A stretch of DNA of 64,000 bases from Limnochordaceae bacterium. Its GTDB lineage: Bacteria > Bacillota > Limnochordia > Limnochordales > Geochordaceae. This document shows positions 41,874-50,414 of this stretch, piece by piece (position 1 is the first letter of the stretch; each line of letters opens with the position of its first letter). The DNA lies in the NCBI GenBank assembly GCA_014896295.1, contig JADBKR010000007.1:248001-312000 (forward strand). Direction: 5' to 3'. The translations under genes were made by a program, and so were the position numbers. The notes under the pieces are model-generated. The model searched no databases. It had not been told where the DNA came from and saw only the letters and a list, made by a program, of their open reading frames with translations.

Positions 41874-42167
41874 ATGGCGGACGGCTCCTTCCGGAGGGTG
41901 ATCCAGGATGAGGAGCACCGCCGGGAAGAGTTCCTGGACCGGCAACTCGAGGTCGGTTGGGAGGAAAACCCCGCCGACCAAGCTCTGGAGCCCCGGGACC
42001 AGTTGACCACGGATCGGCTGGTCGAGGTGCAGCAGGAGGAGATGGGTGAGCCACCGAGGCTGTGGCGTCACGGGTGGCCGCGCAGCGGCGCGTCACCGGC
42101 GCACGGGGCGAGGCGGCGCCCGCTGATCGCCTCTTCGATGGCCCGCCGCAACAGGAGCGGGTCGTAG
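41874..42167 (+). CDS. Small charged hypothetical protein
   Basis: A 97-residue protein that I do not recognise. The first 60 residues are strongly charged and helix-prone (RRVIQDEEHRREEFLDRQLE and TTDRLVEVQQEEMGE), unlike the Pro/Ala/Arg look of shadow frames. The last 35 residues are Arg/Pro/Ser-rich and overlap the 3' end of the convergent gene by 100 bases, so the true product may be shorter or the tail may be incidental. ATG follows AAAGGGGGC, and a good promoter lies upstream. It is the only plus-strand gene between 14 and 60 kb. Function unknown. Confidence 0.5.
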   Translation: MADGSFRRVIQDEEHRREEFLDRQLEVGWEENPADQALEPRDQLTTDRLVEVQQEEMGEPPRLWRHGWPRSGASPAHGARRRPLIASSMARRNRSGS

Positions 42168-43807
42168 AAAAAGACCGGGTATCCCCGAAAGTCCGAGGCC
42201 TGCCGCTCGAGCACGGCGACCGTCGCCTGCCGGAGGCGGGCCTCGATGTTTACGCGGACCCCTTCCAGCCGTTCGGACAGCGCGGCGTTGACCTGCTCGA
42301 TCTGCCGCGTCAGCGCACGCCGGGGAGCTCCCGGCTGCTGGATGGCCCAGACGAGCCGCCTCTTCTCATCGGCAAGCCGCGCCAGCGTGTCGTCCGCTTC
42401 GCCGGGAGCCACCCACCGTTGCGGATTGAAGCGCAGGTCGCGCAGCTGCCGGCGCAGCTGATCCGGCGGCTCCGCGATTTCGGGCCGCGGCAGGTCGGCC
42501 AGCGCCAGGCTCATGGAAGCCACGGCGTAAGGGGGCGGCTCGATGCCGTAGAACCGCCGGGCCACGGCGTCCGTCACCCGGTCGTAGCGGGCTCCCCCCA
42601 CCCCGTGCACGAACAGGTCGGCCAGGAACAGCCTCAAGAACAGGGTCAGCGTCACCGCCCGGGGGCGGATGGCCAATCCCGCCCGCTCCAGGGCCTCGGC
42701 GAGCTCCCGGGCGTCACCCGGCCGGGAGAGGGGCAGCTCTGCCACCGGGCCATCCACCGTCGATAGCTCCAGGGCGTCCCGGCGGGAGCGGTCCTGCCTC
42801 GCATAGAGCTTGCGCCGGCGGACGCCCGGCGTCAGTACCCAGAAGGGCAGTTCCACCCGCCCGCCGGCCGGCTCGACCAGCAGGTCCGGGAAGGGATTGG
42901 CCCTGGAACGGATGTGATGCTGCGACCGGTACGCCGCCAGCGTCTCGTTGTGAATGAGGGCGAACTCCCGAGCCCGTAGCGCCACGTCGGCGAAGAAGAG
43001 CCGGAACGGCCAGGTCGAGGTCAGCTCTCCTGCCGGTACCTCGAGGTACTCCGCGTAAGCCCCGAGCGCCATGGCCTCGAAGCGGTGGCGGGCAGCGGTC
43101 ACCCACTCGGCCAGGCTGGCGGGCGCCTCCCGGTCGCCGCCCGTCGGCGAAGGGGCGGCGGCGAGCCGCATGAACTCCAGGAACCGGCGGATGAGGCTCT
43201 CGCCGGGCTGCCCCAGGGTAGCGAGCCGCTCCACCACGCCCGAGGCGAACGCGTCGAGCTCGCTCGCCCCGGGCGCCGGCACCTGGCAGAAGGGATACCC
43301 GTAGCCCACCGGGGCAAGCGTGACCGGCTCTACGGTGAGGCGCCCGTCCTTGCGAACGGGGACCGGCGCCGCCATCTGGGCCGCGGTGTCGTAGTCCACG
43401 ACCACGTTGAGGGCGACCGCGCCGGGCACGGTGCGTGCGAGGGCCCCGACCAGCGCGTTCTTGACCACGATGCCCGGGTGGGCCAGGATCGGCTGGTGTC
43501 CGGTGACCATCCAGCGCAAGGGCCGGACGGGCCCGTGGATCGCGTGGTGGCCTGCGCTCGGGCCTTCCCACCACCCGTAGCGGCGAGCCTGCCTGGCGCC
43601 TATGGCCAGCGCCGCCTGCCGTAGCGCTCCCCGCAGCTCGGCGGCCGGGACTCCCCCTACGTCGAACCGCTCCGCCTCCAGCGCTTCCGCGTTGCGGGCG
43701 GCGAGCTCCGCCAGCGCAGGCGCCGGCGGGTCCACCAGGGCCTCCCCGAGAGGCGGCAGGGTCCATGGCCGGCGGGATGGATGTGGCGCCAACGAGACCG
43801 TCCCCAC
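42068..43807 (-). CDS. Conserved protein, distantly BshC-like
   Basis: A 579-residue cytoplasmic protein. It has an N-terminal Rossmann-like part with MVTGHQPILAHPGIVVKNAL (about residues 99-118) and LNVVVDYDTA. A distinctive late block follows, LFLRLFLADLFVHGVGGARYDRVTD, given here in parts as FLADLFVHGVGG and ARYDRVTDAVARRFYGIEPP. The GHQ..hPG..VKN motif parallels TGQQ..L.TGPLYTIYKA of BshC, the cysteine-adding bacillithiol enzyme, but the rest is divergent, so I treat BshC as a lead only. The gene follows an LmbE-type deacetylase by 11 bases; the bacillithiol genes bshB and bshC encode exactly such a pair. ATG at 43807. Confidence 0.55.
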   Translation of the reverse strand: MGTVSLAPHPSRRPWTLPPLGEALVDPPAPALAELAARNAEALEAERFDVGGVPAAELRGALRQAALAIGARQARRYGWWEGPSAGHHAIHGPVRPLRWMVTGHQPILAHPGIVVKNALVGALARTVPGAVALNVVVDYDTAAQMAAPVPVRKDGRLTVEPVTLAPVGYGYPFCQVPAPGASELDAFASGVVERLATLGQPGESLIRRFLEFMRLAAAPSPTGGDREAPASLAEWVTAARHRFEAMALGAYAEYLEVPAGELTSTWPFRLFFADVALRAREFALIHNETLAAYRSQHHIRSRANPFPDLLVEPAGGRVELPFWVLTPGVRRRKLYARQDRSRRDALELSTVDGPVAELPLSRPGDARELAEALERAGLAIRPRAVTLTLFLRLFLADLFVHGVGGARYDRVTDAVARRFYGIEPPPYAVASMSLALADLPRPEIAEPPDQLRRQLRDLRFNPQRWVAPGEADDTLARLADEKRRLVWAIQQPGAPRRALTRQIEQVNAALSERLEGVRVNIEARLRQATVAVLERQASDFRGYPVFFYDPLLLRRAIEEAISGRRLAPCAGDAPLRGHP

Positions 43808-43818
43808 CCTTTCTCATC

Positions 43819-44589
43819 TCAAACGAGCGCCGATGGGTCCGCCACGCCGGCGAGCTCCCGGGCGATGAGCGGCTCGGCGTACCGGCAGCCAATCAGGTCG
43901 CCGTAGTAGCGATCCCGGGTGCGCAACCGCTCGGGCACGGCGCGGCCCGCCTCGTTGACCCCGAATTGCGACGTGTACGCCTCGACGGCGGGTAGCTTGC
44001 GCTCTTCCCAGAAGGCGGAGACGTCCACCGCCAGCGAGGCGGGCGCGTGCAGGCGCAGGTGGGTCGCGACGAAGTAAAGGGCGCGAGGCACCAGGTACGG
44101 CTCTCCCGGCATCGAGGTGCGAGTCAGCTTGCCGTAAAAGCGCGCCGCGTCGGTCAACGCCGACGCCGCTACGTGATCGGGGTGCAGGTCCTCCCAGTAG
44201 TGTCCGAGCAACAGCTTGGGCCGGAGCAGGCGGAGCACCGAGGCCACGGCCGCGCGGCCGTCGATGGTGTCCTGCAGGGCGCGATTGGGAAGTGCCAGCG
44301 TGACGCGGGTCTGCACCCCCAGGATGCGAGCGGCTTCATGGCTCTCCGCCCGCCGCCGCTCGGGGCTGCCGAACGGCGTCGGCTCGCCGTTGGTCAGGTC
44401 CAGGATGCCCACCGAAAGGCCGCGGCCGACGAAGGCAGCCACCGTGCCTCCGATGGCCAGTTCCACGTCGTCCGGATGGGCTCCGACGGCAAGCACGTCG
44501 ACGGGACGATCCAGTCCGGTCCCGTACAGCGCCTCGATGGGCAGCGAGGGGGGCGACCCCGGCGCGCCGGCAGGGTCGCTCAGCAACAC
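43819..44589 (-). CDS. LmbE/PIG-L-family deacetylase (BshB-like)
   Basis: A 256-residue zinc-dependent deacetylase of N-acetylglucosaminyl conjugates. Zinc ligands in VGAHPDDVELAIGG (His, Asp, Asp; about residues 34-47) and HPDHVAASAL, with LDLTNGEPTPFGSPERR between. The family includes BshB1 (bacillithiol), MshB (mycothiol) and PIG-L. The GTG at 44589 is chosen because GGAGG lies 8 bases upstream and it overlaps the glycosyltransferase stop by 10 bases. The open frame further upstream lies inside that gene. Downstream is the BshC-like gene. The substrate is probably a GlcNAc-conjugate made by a glycosyltransferase. Confidence 0.85.
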   Translation of the reverse strand: MLLSDPAGAPGSPPSLPIEALYGTGLDRPVDVLAVGAHPDDVELAIGGTVAAFVGRGLSVGILDLTNGEPTPFGSPERRRAESHEAARILGVQTRVTLALPNRALQDTIDGRAAVASVLRLLRPKLLLGHYWEDLHPDHVAASALTDAARFYGKLTRTSMPGEPYLVPRALYFVATHLRLHAPASLAVDVSAFWEERKLPAVEAYTSQFGVNEAGRAVPERLRTRDRYYGDLIGCRYAEPLIARELAGVADPSALV

Positions 44590-45332
44590 CCGGCCTGCCT
44601 CCTGGCGACCGCCGGACAGCCATCGGCCCGGACGGCCCTGCGCCACACGTCGTCGTAGTAACGCCGTCGCGCCGAGGGGTCGTCGAGCCCCCGACCGAAA
44701 CGGCGCTCGAAGTTGGGCTTGTAGATGAGGGGCACCGGAAGCTCTACGATGCTCAGCCCGTGCCGCCACGCCTCCACCCAAACCTCCAGCGGCATCGCAT
44801 ATCCGTCCTCCGAGAGGTGCAAGCGCCGTAAGGCGCTTACCTGGTATCCCTTGAAGCCGCAAAACGCATCCGTGATCCCGAAACCCGTCAGCGCATTGAC
44901 GCGGGCCGTGAACTCCCGGTTGATCGCCAGCCGGTCGAGCGGCACCTCGCCCTCGCTCCCGGCCACGCGCGCCAGGTAGCGGCTCCCGGAGACGATGTCC
45001 CATCCCTCCTCCAGGCGCCGGAAGAAGGCAGGGATCAGGGCCGGCTCGTGCTGCTCGTCGCAGTCCATGGTCACCAGCTGATCGAACCCGTAGGATTGGG
45101 CCCAATCGAAAGCGTCCCGTAGAGCGCGGCCATACCCCAGGTTGCGGGGATGCCGGAGTACCGCGATCCCGGGTATGCCCGCCAGCACCGAAGCCGTGCC
45201 GTCGGTAGAGCCGTCGTCCACGACCAGCACGACGGCCTGCGGTGCGACCTCCCGCACTCGCTCGAGCACCTGCCTGGCGGACCGCTCCTCGTTGAAGACG
45301 GGGATGGCGACTATCTGGCGCCGTAAGCTCAA
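44580..45332 (-). CDS. Family 2 glycosyltransferase (dolichyl-phosphate-mannose-synthase-like)
   Basis: A 250-residue GT-A-fold glycosyltransferase. The nucleotide-sugar site is VAIPVFNEERSARQVLERV (about residues 7-25) with VVDDGSTDGT; the DxD-type motif is TMDCDEQHEP; GSRYLARV follows. It has no transmembrane helices. The TTG at 45332, with GGAAGGGG 9 bases upstream, is the only start consistent with family length, and it lies 24 to 30 bases after the predicted promoter. First gene of the operon with the deacetylase and the BshC-like protein. The classic bacillithiol glycosyltransferase BshA belongs to a different family (GT4), so this GT2 either is unrelated or replaces it. Confidence 0.85.
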   Translation of the reverse strand: MSLRRQIVAIPVFNEERSARQVLERVREVAPQAVVLVVDDGSTDGTASVLAGIPGIAVLRHPRNLGYGRALRDAFDWAQSYGFDQLVTMDCDEQHEPALIPAFFRRLEEGWDIVSGSRYLARVAGSEGEVPLDRLAINREFTARVNALTGFGITDAFCGFKGYQVSALRRLHLSEDGYAMPLEVWVEAWRHGLSIVELPVPLIYKPNFERRFGRGLDDPSARRRYYDDVWRRAVRADGCPAVARRQAGCC

Positions 45333-45362: not shown

Positions 45363-45391
45363 ATTGTAACGGGGATGCCTGCCGGGGTCTA
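45363..45391 (-). promoter_or_regulatory. Sigma-A-type promoter for the glycosyltransferase operon
   Basis: On the minus strand TAGACC (plus 45386-45391), a 17-base spacer and TACAAT (45363-45368). It overlaps the 3' end of the large secreted-protein gene and leaves a short leader before the TTG start. Confidence 0.6.
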
Positions 45392-48300
45392 CCGGCCACC
45401 GGCACCGCCGGGGTCCGAGCTCCACCACCCGGTCGTCCGCACGAAAAGACCCGGGCGCATGGAAGCGGGGACGTCGCCCGGCCGCATCGGCTTCCCCGGC
45501 GCTTTCACCAGGCGCCATCCCATCTCGAGCAGGCCCTCGGGGCTCACCACGAAAAGGCCGGCGCCGAAGGAGGCGCTCCGGTGCAGCGACCAGCCGCCCG
45601 GCTCCAGGGTCAGGGAAGCGGCCCCACCCTCTGCGAACCATCCCCACCGCTCCGCCAGCAGGCCCCGGATGCCTGCATGCCCCATCCACGTCCAGGCCCG
45701 GTAGCCCTCCCCAGCAGGCGTGACGCGAACGTCGCCCCGCAGGTACCGGCCAGGGGAGGCCCGCAGCCAGCGCCCTGCCTCGGAGGGAGGGCCGGGATGG
45801 TCCCCGATTGAGGCCGACCATTCGGCCACCTCGCCCTCGAAGCGCGCACAGACCGAGGCCGCCATGCGCTCGCTCCCGTACAGGAGGCGTCCCTCGGCGA
45901 CCAACGCTGTCTGGTCCTCCTCCACCGCCCCGCCGGAACGGCGCCGCAGGGAGAACGCTCCGGACCACCGCTGGACGGCTCCGGTTGCATCGGTCTGTTC
46001 GGGTGCAGGGCCGGCGCGGGTCCACGAGAGCTCGGCCTGTTCGGGAGTGAGCCGAAGCGCCACCGTGCCCCACCGGGGGTTGTACTCGATCGCGAGATGG
46101 GACGGCCGCAGCCTTTCCGGACGGGCCTCGAGCCCTGTGGCCAGCCGCACCCCGCTCGAAGGCTGCAAAGCCCCTTCCACCCGGGTCCCCGGGGTCAGGC
46201 GAAGGCCATGGGCCGAAAAAGTTGCCTCCACCCTGCCCTGCAAGCGCAGGTCCAGCTTCCGGGAGAGCGAAGCGGCAAGATCGACCCAGGCGGTAGCAGG
46301 CGCCCCGTCTTGCCCCTCGAGGAGAGTCCTGGCATCCACCCCCAGGGACCAGCGTCCCCTCGGCGCGGCCGGGCCTGCCGCGGCTGCAGTGAGGCGGGCG
46401 ACGGGATAGACCCGGGGATCGGCCTCGCACCCGCCCTCGCCCTGCCCGACTGCCAGGCCTGCTTGGGCATCCAACCGGACCGCGCCCGCGAGGGAGCTCG
46501 GGAGCGAGGAGCCTTCGGCCGTGGCGGCTACCGCCAGGGCCTGCCGCAACCTGGCGGGATCCCGCGCGTCGTCGGCGGAGTGCCACAGCAGGCTGCCCAT
46601 CCCGTACAGCTGGGTGAAGCGCCCCATGTCGGCACCGAGCCCCAAACGGTGGGCCAGACCGCCGCTCGCGAGCCGGGCCGCGCTCCACTCCACCGTGGTG
46701 CGGCCGCCCCCCGCTCCGGGGCCTGCGAGCCCCGTCTCCCCGCCCGCTTCCCACGTCTGCCACGCGGTATCCCTCCCTCCTGCCCATGGAGTGACGAGCC
46801 TGGCCGTCCACGCGCTTGGCGGCAGCCCGTCGACCGGGCCCGGGTATCCGGCCGGGTCCATGGGCCGGCCCGGATCAAGGCTCATCCGGTACTCCACTTG
46901 AGCCTCGCTCGTGTCCTCGTCGCTACGCCGCCACCCTGCGTGCAGAGCCGGGCCTTGCCCCCTCTGCCCCAAGGCCATGGGGCCCGTAACGGTCAGCCAG
47001 GTCGTTTGCTTCTCGTCCCGCCGGTCGACGGCCTGTACGAAGCTCTGTCCGCCGTCGAGCCGCCACGTAGCCACCCATCCGGACCCCCTGGCATCGCTCG
47101 CTCCCCACTCCCACGCAACCCCCGGAACCAGGCCCCCGCCATGCCCGCCTCCGGAAGAGGGAGGCTGCAGCAGGCTCCCGTCCACTGCCGGAGGCTGCAC
47201 GCGATCCCCCCTGGCCGGGTCGAGCAGCCCTGCCGTCACCTCGTGGAGGGCCGTCCCCCACTCCAGCCGGGCCGGCAAGCGGCCATCCGGCCCTGCAGCA
47301 ACGACCAGCTGCCCCCTCGCTTCTCCGGCACCGACCGTGACCAAAAGCGAGCCGTTGCCGTCCGGTGCCGCGCCGGAGGTCCACTCCATCCGGCCTGCCG
47401 CGTCGACGCGCCACGCCGGCGACCCTCCTGCCGGTCGAGCCCCGGGAGAAGGAGCGGCGAGCACCGCGGGCACACTCACACCCGGCCGGACGACGAGGAT
47501 GGCCGGCTCGCCCCGGGGTATCCGGACTGGCTCATGATCCCCCCGCACCGCCGCCGGGTGCTCGACCCACAGCATGTGCACGCCTGCCGGCAGCGCCATG
47601 CGGAAAAAGCCCGACCGGTCGACCCCGGCCGACACGCCGAGGCTCGAAGCCACCACCCATTCGTCCTGCCCGCCCGCGGGCTCCACGCGGCCAACGACCA
47701 CCCCGTGCCCTTCCACCAGCTCCCGGGACAAGGGCAAGGAGATGGAGGCGGGCGCAAGAGACGCCTCGAAACGCCCGTGGCGCATCGTCCCTCGGGCGAT
47801 CACCTCCACCTCGCCTCGCCCCGCCGCTTCGGGCGTCACCACCGCCCGCACCGACAGCGACGAGGTCGCGCTCCCGGGAGCAACGCCCACTGGCCACAGC
47901 AGCCTCCCTTCGTTCCACCCGATCGTCTGACGGTAACGATCCTCGCCTCCTCTCGGCGATGGCCGCCACGAATCGGGGAGGACCTGCAGACCGGAAGGAA
48001 AGCGGAGCTCCACGAGGACCGGCGGCTCGCCCCCCGGCACGAGATCCGGCAGGCCCCGCGCAAACTCCACGCTGGCGTCGATCTCGACGACGTCGCCGAC
48101 CCATAGGGCCCGCCGCCCGGCAAGGTTGCGCATCGCCAGCCGGATAGAGGGCGTGTCAGCGGGCCGGAGCAACAGTTCGGCCTTACCGGCGCTTTGCGTC
48201 CGTGCATCGGCAGGCGGCACCCGGACCTCCCCGGCCGCTCCCCGGTAGCCCGGCGCTTCGGCTTCCACCCGGTAGACGCCGGCATCCAGACCGGAGAAAG

Positions 48301-49243
48301 TCAGGCTCCCCTGCCCGTTGGAGCGGCCTGACCGCCCCGGCGGTCCCCCCGGGCGCCTCAAGGTCACCAGAGCCCCGTTGACCGGCCTGCCGTCCAGGGC
48401 GTCGCGGACCTGGACCTCGAGCGCCTGGGCGGCCGCCCCGCCCTCGACGAGCAGGACCGTCGTGCCTCCAATCCGCCGCCGGGCCTGTCCCCGCTGCCAG
48501 AAATCCACCACCACGCAATAGAGACCCACGGGCAGGCCGGTGACCTTGGAGGCCGGGACCTCCAGCATCTGCCACCCGGACCCTACCGGCCCGGCCAACA
48601 CGTCCCACGGCGTCAAGACGCTGCAGTGGGTGCCCGGCGCGGCCGGGCCCAGTCTGACCCAGATCGCGCCCTGGCCCGGGACGTCCGCGTAGACCTGTAA
48701 CGGCTGCGTAGAGCCTTTGACGTAAGGGTTGGGCCATGCCAGGACCGGGTCGAGGGTCACCCCGCTCGGTTGCAGCGTGTAGCGTACGGGAACGGAGTAA
48801 GGAGCGGAGGCGGCCCGATCCGTCCACTCGGGCCGGAACCTCCACTCGATGTGGGCGACGGTCTCGGCAGGCAGGTTCACCTGCCGCCCCGTACCCGGGT
48901 ACGTCAGCGGAATAAAGTCCGGCACCTGGCCTTCGTACCAGCGCAGGCCCCACTGCAGCCGGTTCAAGGGAAGCCGAAACGTCCCGTCGGGACCCTGGCT
49001 GACCAGTTCGGGCGCCTGGGGCTCGGGAATGATCGAGACCAGCCCCTTCGGCACCAGGAATCCGACGTGTCCCACGACGGCGCCCGTGCCGGGCCGCACC
49101 GGATCGGCCGGCAAGAGCACGGGAGCACCTCCCGGGGGCAGGTCCACCTCCCATGCACGGACCGGGACGGCCGCAAACGAGAGCCCAAGCAGCGCGCAAA
49201 GCACGAAGCGCCCCAGAACGGCCCTACCGCCCGTGGGGCTCAT
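45389..49243 (-). CDS. Large secreted protein: Ig-like and regulatory-like domains plus a barrel-like C-terminal half
   Basis: A 1284-residue exported protein with no close match that I can name. An N-terminal Sec signal (VLGRFVLCALLGLSFAAVPV, ending near ARAW, residues 9-31) is followed by beta-rich domains. One is a carboxypeptidase-regulatory-like domain near residues 275-345 (VRDALDGRPVNGALVTLRRP). A DUF11-like or cohesin-like beta domain lies near 380-490, and a second regulatory-like domain near 510-590. From about residue 700 to the end the sequence alternates hydrophobic and polar residues with many Trp/Tyr and Gly, as in an outer-membrane beta-barrel. ATG at 49243 overlaps the preceding stop (ATGA). 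Usher-like placement is inferred. Confidence 0.6.
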   Translation of the reverse strand: MSPTGGRAVLGRFVLCALLGLSFAAVPVRAWEVDLPPGGAPVLLPADPVRPGTGAVVGHVGFLVPKGLVSIIPEPQAPELVSQGPDGTFRLPLNRLQWGLRWYEGQVPDFIPLTYPGTGRQVNLPAETVAHIEWRFRPEWTDRAASAPYSVPVRYTLQPSGVTLDPVLAWPNPYVKGSTQPLQVYADVPGQGAIWVRLGPAAPGTHCSVLTPWDVLAGPVGSGWQMLEVPASKVTGLPVGLYCVVVDFWQRGQARRRIGGTTVLLVEGGAAAQALEVQVRDALDGRPVNGALVTLRRPGGPPGRSGRSNGQGSLTFSGLDAGVYRVEAEAPGYRGAAGEVRVPPADARTQSAGKAELLLRPADTPSIRLAMRNLAGRRALWVGDVVEIDASVEFARGLPDLVPGGEPPVLVELRFPSGLQVLPDSWRPSPRGGEDRYRQTIGWNEGRLLWPVGVAPGSATSSLSVRAVVTPEAAGRGEVEVIARGTMRHGRFEASLAPASISLPLSRELVEGHGVVVGRVEPAGGQDEWVVASSLGVSAGVDRSGFFRMALPAGVHMLWVEHPAAVRGDHEPVRIPRGEPAILVVRPGVSVPAVLAAPSPGARPAGGSPAWRVDAAGRMEWTSGAAPDGNGSLLVTVGAGEARGQLVVAAGPDGRLPARLEWGTALHEVTAGLLDPARGDRVQPPAVDGSLLQPPSSGGGHGGGLVPGVAWEWGASDARGSGWVATWRLDGGQSFVQAVDRRDEKQTTWLTVTGPMALGQRGQGPALHAGWRRSDEDTSEAQVEYRMSLDPGRPMDPAGYPGPVDGLPPSAWTARLVTPWAGGRDTAWQTWEAGGETGLAGPGAGGGRTTVEWSAARLASGGLAHRLGLGADMGRFTQLYGMGSLLWHSADDARDPARLRQALAVAATAEGSSLPSSLAGAVRLDAQAGLAVGQGEGGCEADPRVYPVARLTAAAAGPAAPRGRWSLGVDARTLLEGQDGAPATAWVDLAASLSRKLDLRLQGRVEATFSAHGLRLTPGTRVEGALQPSSGVRLATGLEARPERLRPSHLAIEYNPRWGTVALRLTPEQAELSWTRAGPAPEQTDATGAVQRWSGAFSLRRRSGGAVEEDQTALVAEGRLLYGSERMAASVCARFEGEVAEWSASIGDHPGPPSEAGRWLRASPGRYLRGDVRVTPAGEGYRAWTWMGHAGIRGLLAERWGWFAEGGAASLTLEPGGWSLHRSASFGAGLFVVSPEGLLEMGWRLVKAPGKPMRPGDVPASMRPGLFVRTTGWWSSDPGGAGGR

Positions 49244-50414
49244 GGGACATCGACCCCGCTCGGATGGAGGGCCAGGGCCGGTTCGACGGTGACCACGAGA
49301 TCGTCCCGGGCGACCTCCCGCTCGCCGTGGATCCAGCGTACCCCCGCCCGATAGGCCCCCGGGGCCAGGGGGCCCGGCCAGGGCAGGCGAGCTACCCTCA
49401 CTTCTCCGCGTCCACCGGCCCCAGCAGGACCGGGTCTTGCGCCGTCCGGGCCCCATCCCGCTCGATGTACCACTCGAGCTGCGGCGCAAGCGTATGAGGA
49501 CTCCGGTTGTGCACCGAGGCCACGAGCGCCATGCTGCCGTCCCGGGAGGGCCTGAGTTGCAGGCTCACGGCACCGTCGACCCCGGCGAGGCGATACGGTG
49601 CATCGACCGTCAGGCTCGCGGTGGCTCCGGCGGCCTTTCCTGCACCCCGGGTGCCGGCCAGGCTCGCCGATACGCGGTAGACCCCGGCAGGGAGCAGGTC
49701 GGGCTGCCAGCGGGCCCGGACGAGCCGCACCGCGCCGGGGTAGACCGTCGCGGGACCCATCAAGAGCGCCGCCTGAGGTCCTCTTCCTGCCCCAGGCCCC
49801 GACTCGGCCGTGATCACGCTCTCGATCACCGCCTCGGCGTCCGTCCCGCCGTCGTTGCGCACTCGGGCAACGATCTCCACCGGGTCCCCCTCTCTGCTCT
49901 GCTCCGCCCACACCGCCTCGATGGAGAGCTGCGGGCCGCGCGCGGGACGGGCACGGCGCACGCCGACCAGCACGACCACCCGGAAGGTACCCAGGGGAGC
50001 CGGCACCTGTACCAGCACCGCGCTGTAGATGGCCGACTCCGGCACCCGCCGCACCGAAAGCCACAGCGTCTCCTGCTGGCCGGGGCCAAGGACGCGCTCG
50101 GTCCACTCCGGCCCGAGGTACTCCTGGGCGCGGGCCAGGTGCCCGGGCTCCTCCAGGACGACCGGCCGCCCTTCAGGGGAATGCGTTAGCATAGCTATCC
50201 CCACGCGCACGGGTAGCGGCGCCTCCCCCCGGTTACCCACGAAGATGGGCCCGACTCGCTCCCCGGCATGTTCCACGACCGCCGTCACCGTCAACGGAGT
50301 GACCCTCAGCAAGGCCCGGCAGGGCTGCTCGATCCCCATCACCAGGCCAGCGGCCGCCAGGAGCGTCACACAGAGCCACCATGGGCACCTTCCGGCCAAC
50401 CGGTACGGCATCAT
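49240..50414 (-). CDS. Secreted Ig-like, chaperone-like protein, frameshifted near its end
   Basis: Exported protein of about 390 residues when repaired. Signal peptide with WWLCVTLLAAAGLVMG (about residues 12-27). The first domain reads VTPLTVTAVVEHAGERVGPI with FVGNRGEAPLPVRVGIAML, resembling periplasmic pilus chaperones and other Ig-like fibrillar-assembly proteins. Two further Ig-like domains follow (IVARVRNDGGTDAEAV and LVASVHNRSPHTLAP). The main frame stops at 49398, but another frame continues with VRVARLPWPGPLAPGAYRAG and ends at 49240 in an ATGA overlap with the next gene, so I place a one-base shift near 49398-49420. The ATG at 50414 follows GGAGGGCACGGGGC. Chaperone function is inferred from order and pattern. 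Confidence 0.6.

Follow-up and report, generated by a model that had tools for sequence, protein, structure and literature searches.

Within a 64,000-nucleotide stretch of DNA from a Limnochordaceae bacterium (assembly GCA_014896295.1, contig JADBKR010000007.1, positions 248,001 to 312,000; hereafter the window), we analysed three genes that lie head to tail on the minus strand. The first (45332–44580; TTG start, 250 amino acids) encodes a family GT2 glycosyltransferase (PF00535, E 3.7e-25) that we propose to be a substitute for BshA. The second (44589–43819; GTG start) encodes a BshB1-like LmbE/PIG-L deacetylase (PF02585, E 6.2e-20) of a type marked by the motif EPTP. The third (43807–42068; GTG start) encodes a 579-residue protein of a family without annotation, which has the predicted fold of class I aminoacyl-tRNA synthetases and BshC and may be an amino acid ligase, perhaps for cysteine. 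The genes overlap or nearly do so, as the initial annotation had stated: the end of the GT2 gene and the start of the LmbE gene share 10 nucleotides, and the ligase gene begins 11 nucleotides past the LmbE stop codon. The initial annotation had also placed the first enzyme in GT2 rather than in the GT4 family of BshA, which the Pfam match bears out. On balance, we lean towards the view that the trio is a dedicated pathway of the bacillithiol or mycothiol type, in which the GT2 enzyme replaces BshA and the ligase is a remote relative of BshC.

Searches of Pfam, NCBIfam and PDB sequences gave no above-threshold match for the 579-residue protein, so that no other family claims it. The 11 members of ligase alignment A1 likewise had no above-threshold match in Pfam or NCBIfam, PF10079 (BshC) included, and a ligase profile compared with PDB sequences retrieved coiled-coil matches only. 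An AlphaFold model of the ligase, for which an 11-sequence alignment served as input, reached a mean pLDDT of 86.3 and a pTM of 0.85. When this model was compared with the PDB using Foldseek, BshC (4wbd) was the top match (E 3.4e-11, probability 1.00), followed by class I lysyl-tRNA synthetase (LysRS; E 6.4e-5), and the remaining list, at E > 0.01, consisted largely of MshC and class I aminoacyl-tRNA synthetases. With VIA-align, BshC 4wbd was superposed over 443 residues (Z 22.4, 6.2 Å, 12% identity) and LysRS (1irx) over 280 residues (Z 20.4, 3.6 Å, 15% identity over the aligned part), and the MshC structures gave Z of about 10; the rows given here are those for BshC, MshC and aminoacyl-tRNA synthetases, and other matching folds may exist. 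The predicted structure contains a Rossmann, class I synthetase-like core together with a coiled coil as in 4wbd, in agreement with the earlier description of the protein as distantly BshC-like. Since BshC and the class I synthetases have related folds, the amino acid is not fixed by the fold alone.

The motifs MVTGHQP and FVHGVGGARYD, previously singled out as unusual, are indeed present in the protein; they are not oddities, being signatures of a widespread family that has no annotation. By eye, the family motif GHQPxxxHPGxxxK lies at the position of GQQAGLLTGPLYTIHK in BshC, VDxD at that of EDHD, and DLFxHGxGGxxYD at that of LAFIAGPGEINYW. Similar motifs of the ligase and BshC are paired by hhalign, within a weak match. 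The conservation of GHQP and DLFxHG in the ligase alignment of 78 rows (P0001 and 77 stretches of at least 400 amino acids) is partly by construction, because the family loci were retrieved by means of these motifs.

The deacetylase passes the equivalog cut-off for BshB1 (TIGR04001; 190.1 bits, cut-off 182.5), and the closest proteins of known structure are 1uan (E 3.9e-39), 2ixd and 6p2t, the last of which is named a bacillithiol deacetylase. EPTP, mostly in the form DLT[N/D]GEPTPxG, occurs in 58 of the 60 linked deacetylases, the other two being split over two frames or cut at a contig end, and in all 11 unlinked deacetylases from ligase-bearing genomes, mostly planctomycetes. It is absent from the two other LmbE genes of the window genome, from one LmbE gene each in G004 and G007, two genomes of the window's order, and from six LmbE genes of the class. 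Four reference BshB1 proteins carry GEMGSKGT, ADLSSNGT, AELSSNGT and GELGTRGS at this position. In a maximum-likelihood tree of 85 rows, the EPTP deacetylases grouped in a single 71-row clade (support 100/99), from which all four references are excluded, so that the window protein does not group with reference BshB1; the sole member of the clade without the motif is the gene broken over two frames. The corresponding loop of MshB lines the substrate pocket, which makes an aglycone or linkage other than the known ones plausible. The split gene (L079 7094–7985), from a metagenome-assembled genome of the Coriobacteriia, reflects either a sequencing error or a broken gene. The window genome also holds a second BshB1-like LmbE gene (L135 3283–4035, C4), which lacks EPTP and at 167.8 bits falls under the cut-off.

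The AlphaFold model of the GT2 enzyme (pLDDT 92.0) is nearest among solved folds to dolichyl-phosphate mannose (DPM) synthase (Z 25.1, 3.0 Å over 234 residues), and it is also near ArnC, GtrB, GpgS (Z about 20.9) and mannosylglycerate synthase (Z about 18.5). These proteins have the GT-A fold, and their substrates are either polyprenyl phosphates or small hydroxy acids; identity to the window enzyme is 18–24% for GpgS, DPM synthase, ArnC and GtrB and 11–18% for the mannosylglycerate-type synthases. Set against this group (GpgS, the mannosylglycerate synthases, DPM1, ArnC and GtrB), the 250-residue window enzyme has, by eye, no membrane anchor domain. Being of family GT2, it also fails the BshA model TIGR03999, which describes a GT4 enzyme.

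To find relatives, we scanned the genomes of 84,980 species with the ligase alignment and obtained 226 ligase-family loci, 80 of which were kept and underlie the locus counts given here; a scan with the single ligase sequence found none. The GT2, LmbE and ligase genes are adjacent in 56 of the 80 loci (55 identified by script, and L048, which the script missed through its stop-to-stop frame), and five more are interrupted by contig ends. Grouped by record title, which may be wrong for some metagenome-assembled genomes, the adjacent trio was seen in 6 of 8 loci from Limnochordales, 26 of 28 from Coriobacteriia/Actinobacteria, 12 of 13 from Armatimonadota/ANGP1, 8 of 8 from Nitrospinota/Nitrospirae, 0 of 14 from Planctomycetota, 0 of 2 from spirochaetes and 4 of 7 from others. 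In planctomycetes and spirochaetes the parts of the trio are partly or wholly scattered. Conservation of the neighbourhood, which had been suggested as a check on the first reading, is thus found in several phyla, and the adjacency of the three genes is more than chance. No further neighbour family is conserved across all groups, other recurrent neighbours being clade-specific, and no ligase was found in plasmids.

The three genes also co-occur where they are not linked. The ligase is present in 12 of 60 related genomes, all within the window's order, which accounts for 13 of the 60; in the thirteenth, the GT2 gene and the start of the LmbE gene are followed by the end of the contig. A GT2 alignment search of 75 genomes, with orthologues defined by E ≤ 1e-45, found an orthologue in 13/13 genomes of the order, in 0/47 other genomes of the class, which are ligase-free, and in 14/15 further ligase genomes, mostly of planctomycetes and spirochaetes. 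Nine of these 14 orthologues are unlinked to the ligase, and these nine genes lie outside the query alignment. Strong matches to the EPTP deacetylase were found in 10 of the 13 order genomes (with one more cut at a contig end), in none of the 47 class genomes (best E 3.0e-33) and in 12 of the 15 further genomes, of which another had a match at E 2.9e-59 and two had none; the deacetylase query included five unlinked planctomycete deacetylases, first found through TIGR04001. The contrast within the class (13/13 against 0/47) represents one phylogenetic event, and the planctomycete and spirochaete cases are more independent.

The initial annotation had made its reading depend on the absence of a canonical bshA–bshB–bshC set elsewhere, and we found none in the window genome. 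PF10079 has no match there (3 of 14 control genomes match), and the search for a GT4 BshA gave a best TIGR03999 match of 101.6 bits, well under the cut-off of 273.7. No BshC over cut-off was present in 60 related genomes (12 with the ligase), in 50 other ligase genomes or in 43 genomes of one Armatimonadota-type phylum, and none was found in viral contigs. A mutual exclusion of ligase and BshC was not counted as evidence, since ligase-free genomes are without BshC too and provide no contrast. Because TIGR04001 would name these deacetylases as bacillithiol enzymes even though matches to BshA and BshC are missing, predicting bacillithiol from bshB alone would be misleading.

From the gene order, the families, the predicted folds, the conservation and the co-occurrence, all of which the analysis shows, we infer the substrates and aglycone, the order of steps, the use of cysteine, and the thiol nature and redox role of the product. 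The GT2 enzyme would transfer N-acetylglucosamine (GlcNAc) from UDP-GlcNAc to a small acceptor X; the EPTP deacetylase would then convert GlcNAc-X to the glucosamine (GlcN) derivative GlcN-X; and the ligase would use ATP to couple an amino acid to the amine of GlcN-X, yielding aminoacyl-GlcN-X, with a likely adenylation mechanism like that of class I synthetases and MshC. Cysteine is the likeliest amino acid, since the two pathways known to have this enzyme order both yield Cys-GlcN compounds, and the product is probably a low-molecular-weight thiol that protects the cell. X probably differs from the malate of bacillithiol in identity or linkage, given that the glycosyltransferase comes from a different family and that the deacetylases form a clade with a signature of its own. 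The variant bacillithiol-like pathway of the initial annotation is well supported by the fold of the ligase, by the BshB1-like LmbE protein and by the lack of a canonical set elsewhere in the genome; its product, probably a thiol, might instead be another aminoacyl-sugar or a lipid-linked sugar. More tentatively, the GT2 enzyme, the EPTP deacetylase and the new ligase family might make a third, so far unrecognised kind of glucosamine-based thiol built on a new aglycone. This compound would be the principal redox buffer in Planctomycetota, Coriobacteriia-type Actinobacteria, Armatimonadota, Nitrospinota and Limnochordales, groups of which some are without a known thiol.

Compared with the bacillithiol pathway (BshA–BshB1–BshC), the window system has the same three-step logic, a deacetylase over the BshB1 cut-off and a ligase model nearest BshC. 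It differs in having GT2 in place of GT4 BshA, a ligase outside PF10079, a deacetylase of the separate EPTP clade and all genes in one operon, and in that YpdA and BshA are under cut-off in the window genome. MshA, the first enzyme of mycothiol synthesis (MshA–MshB–MshC–MshD), is also a GT4 enzyme. The mycothiol pathway resembles the trio in its succession of glycosyltransferase, LmbE deacetylase and class I synthetase-like ligase, and two planctomycete loci have, immediately behind the ligase gene, a GNAT gene reminiscent of MshD; however, MshC structures are lower matches to the ligase (Z about 10), and no inositol gene was seen beside the window trio. Class I LysRS (1irx), the second-best fold match of the ligase, differs in that only 280 residues align at 15% identity and in that the window ligase sits in a trio.

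Several observations weigh against a thiol pathway of this type. The PF10079 profile fails to match the window ligase, and comparison of the ligase and BshC profiles by hhalign gave a score of 30.1 (E 0.0089), yet an unrelated GT2 profile reached 28.1; among the controls, none of 30 column shuffles exceeded 21.7 and reversal scored 20.0. Because the profile match is weak, the claim of homology rests on structure and context, and sequence profiles by themselves do not prove that the ligase is homologous to BshC. The best YpdA match (TIGR04018) in the window genome is 50.7 bits, with a cut-off of 339.9 that 3 of 14 controls pass. Bacilliredoxin (PF06491) occurs in just 1 of 63 genomes, a count that is uninformative because the bacillithiol-type controls Thermus and Deinobacterium are also without PF06491. 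G004 and G007 have the GT2 and ligase genes but no EPTP deacetylase. Finally, the nearest solved fold of the GT2 enzyme is a maker of polyprenyl-phosphate sugars.

This last point bears on the main rival, in which the GT2 enzyme would make polyprenyl-phosphate-GlcNAc, to be deacetylated by LmbE and aminoacylated by the ligase, giving an aminoacyl-aminosugar of the envelope and no soluble thiol. It is consistent with the close fit to DPM synthase (Z 25.1), ArnC and GtrB and with the sub-threshold NCBIfam matches of the GT2 enzyme, which include polyprenyl and dolichyl enzymes. However, GpgS and mannosylglycerate synthase, which have small hydroxy acid substrates, are also close (Z about 18–21), the deacetylase is nearest BshB1 rather than a lipid-linked enzyme, and neither a flippase nor an envelope transferase is a recurrent neighbour of the trio in different phyla; we consider this route unlikely. 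A second alternative keeps the chemistry of the proposed pathway but has the ligase add an amino acid other than cysteine, so that the metabolite is not a thiol. Class I LysRS fits the ligase model nearly as well as BshC does (Z 20.4, 3.6 Å, 280 residues), and the ligase is without the cysteine-rich metal site that cysteinyl-tRNA synthetase and MshC carry, no cysteine being conserved throughout the family (the most conserved cysteine column has the residue in 37 of 78 rows). Nevertheless, BshC was the top match in both programs and alone covers most of the chain (443 residues), and the deacetylase and gene logic agree with the known Cys-GlcN pathways, which makes a non-thiol product quite improbable. 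That enzymes of other families make bacillithiol itself is very improbable, for although the deacetylase is over the BshB1 equivalog cut-off, the EPTP clade stands apart from the four reference BshB1 proteins, YpdA is under its cut-off, and canonical GT2 enzymes invert the anomeric centre whereas BshA, a GT4 enzyme, retains it.

What is known is the logic of bacillithiol and mycothiol synthesis; what is new is the family of the first enzyme, the separate deacetylase clade and the ligase family without annotation, a putative new relative of BshC. A literature search that excluded preprints and included few subscription papers found no published description of the trio or of the ligase family, and parts of a survey from 2010 on ligases resembling class I synthetases describe other families. 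According to a 2018 survey (PMC6282198), low-molecular-weight thiols are neither documented nor predicted in Planctomycetes, Spirochaetes and other major lineages, and the operon supplies a defined set of genes to test in members of such groups. According to a 2015 review, BshC activity had never been demonstrated in vitro (PMC4360819).

The initial annotation had given the trio its own promoter. A sigma-70-like site, TAGACC-17-TACAAT (45391–45363, minus strand; 9/12 matches), is indeed predicted from the sequence about 30 bases 5′ of the GT2 start. A search of 7.5 kb yielded two promoter-like sites, compared with a mean of 0.3 after shuffling, which is no evidence of function. Support for the promoter is weak because a gene on the same strand ends at 45389, and read-through from it into the trio is therefore possible. 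This gene (45389–49489, minus strand), directly upstream of the GT2 gene, encodes a 1366-residue protein with a carboxypeptidase-regulatory-like domain; a relative (33% identity) is equally placed in a same-family genome only. Downstream on the minus strand lie genes for S-methyl-5′-thioadenosine phosphorylase (MTAP; 41730–40894, TIGR01694, 286.7 bits, start counted by hand), a DegS-like histidine kinase (40790–39513; PF05384, E 1.2e-34) and, adjoining the kinase, a LuxR-type response regulator (39479–38673; PF00072 and PF00196). Beyond the window, MTAP matches adjoin the trio in 11 loci of the order and DegS-like kinase matches in 8, and both are conserved neighbours within the window's order only. 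Rfam and tRNA scans gave no matches.

Other genes stand next to or between the trio genes at individual loci. In G004 and G007, an alpha/beta hydrolase gene and a PsuG-like (pseudouridine-phosphate-glycosidase-like) gene lie between the ligase and the phosphorylase (MTAP); at L035 (10227–11987), a locus of a genome without the EPTP deacetylase, the PsuG-like gene between ligase and MTAP matches PF04227 and the other encodes an alpha/beta hydrolase, PF04227 having been scanned in L035 only. An amidohydrolase gene directly precedes the ligase, in the place of the deacetylase, at L116 (4211–5299) and L104 (1375–2463). The protein matches PF04909 in L104 and is similar, without a Pfam match, in L116, where its gene lies between GT2 and the ligase; the upstream GT2 match in L104 is a remnant of 105 codons only. 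The amidohydrolase may be a replacement deacetylase. The GNAT acetyltransferase genes directly after the ligase in planctomycetes are those of L093 (9566–11029) and L102 (9567–10928), and in an anammox planctomycete (L086 9695–11149) a beta-eliminating lyase (PF01212) directly follows the ligase.

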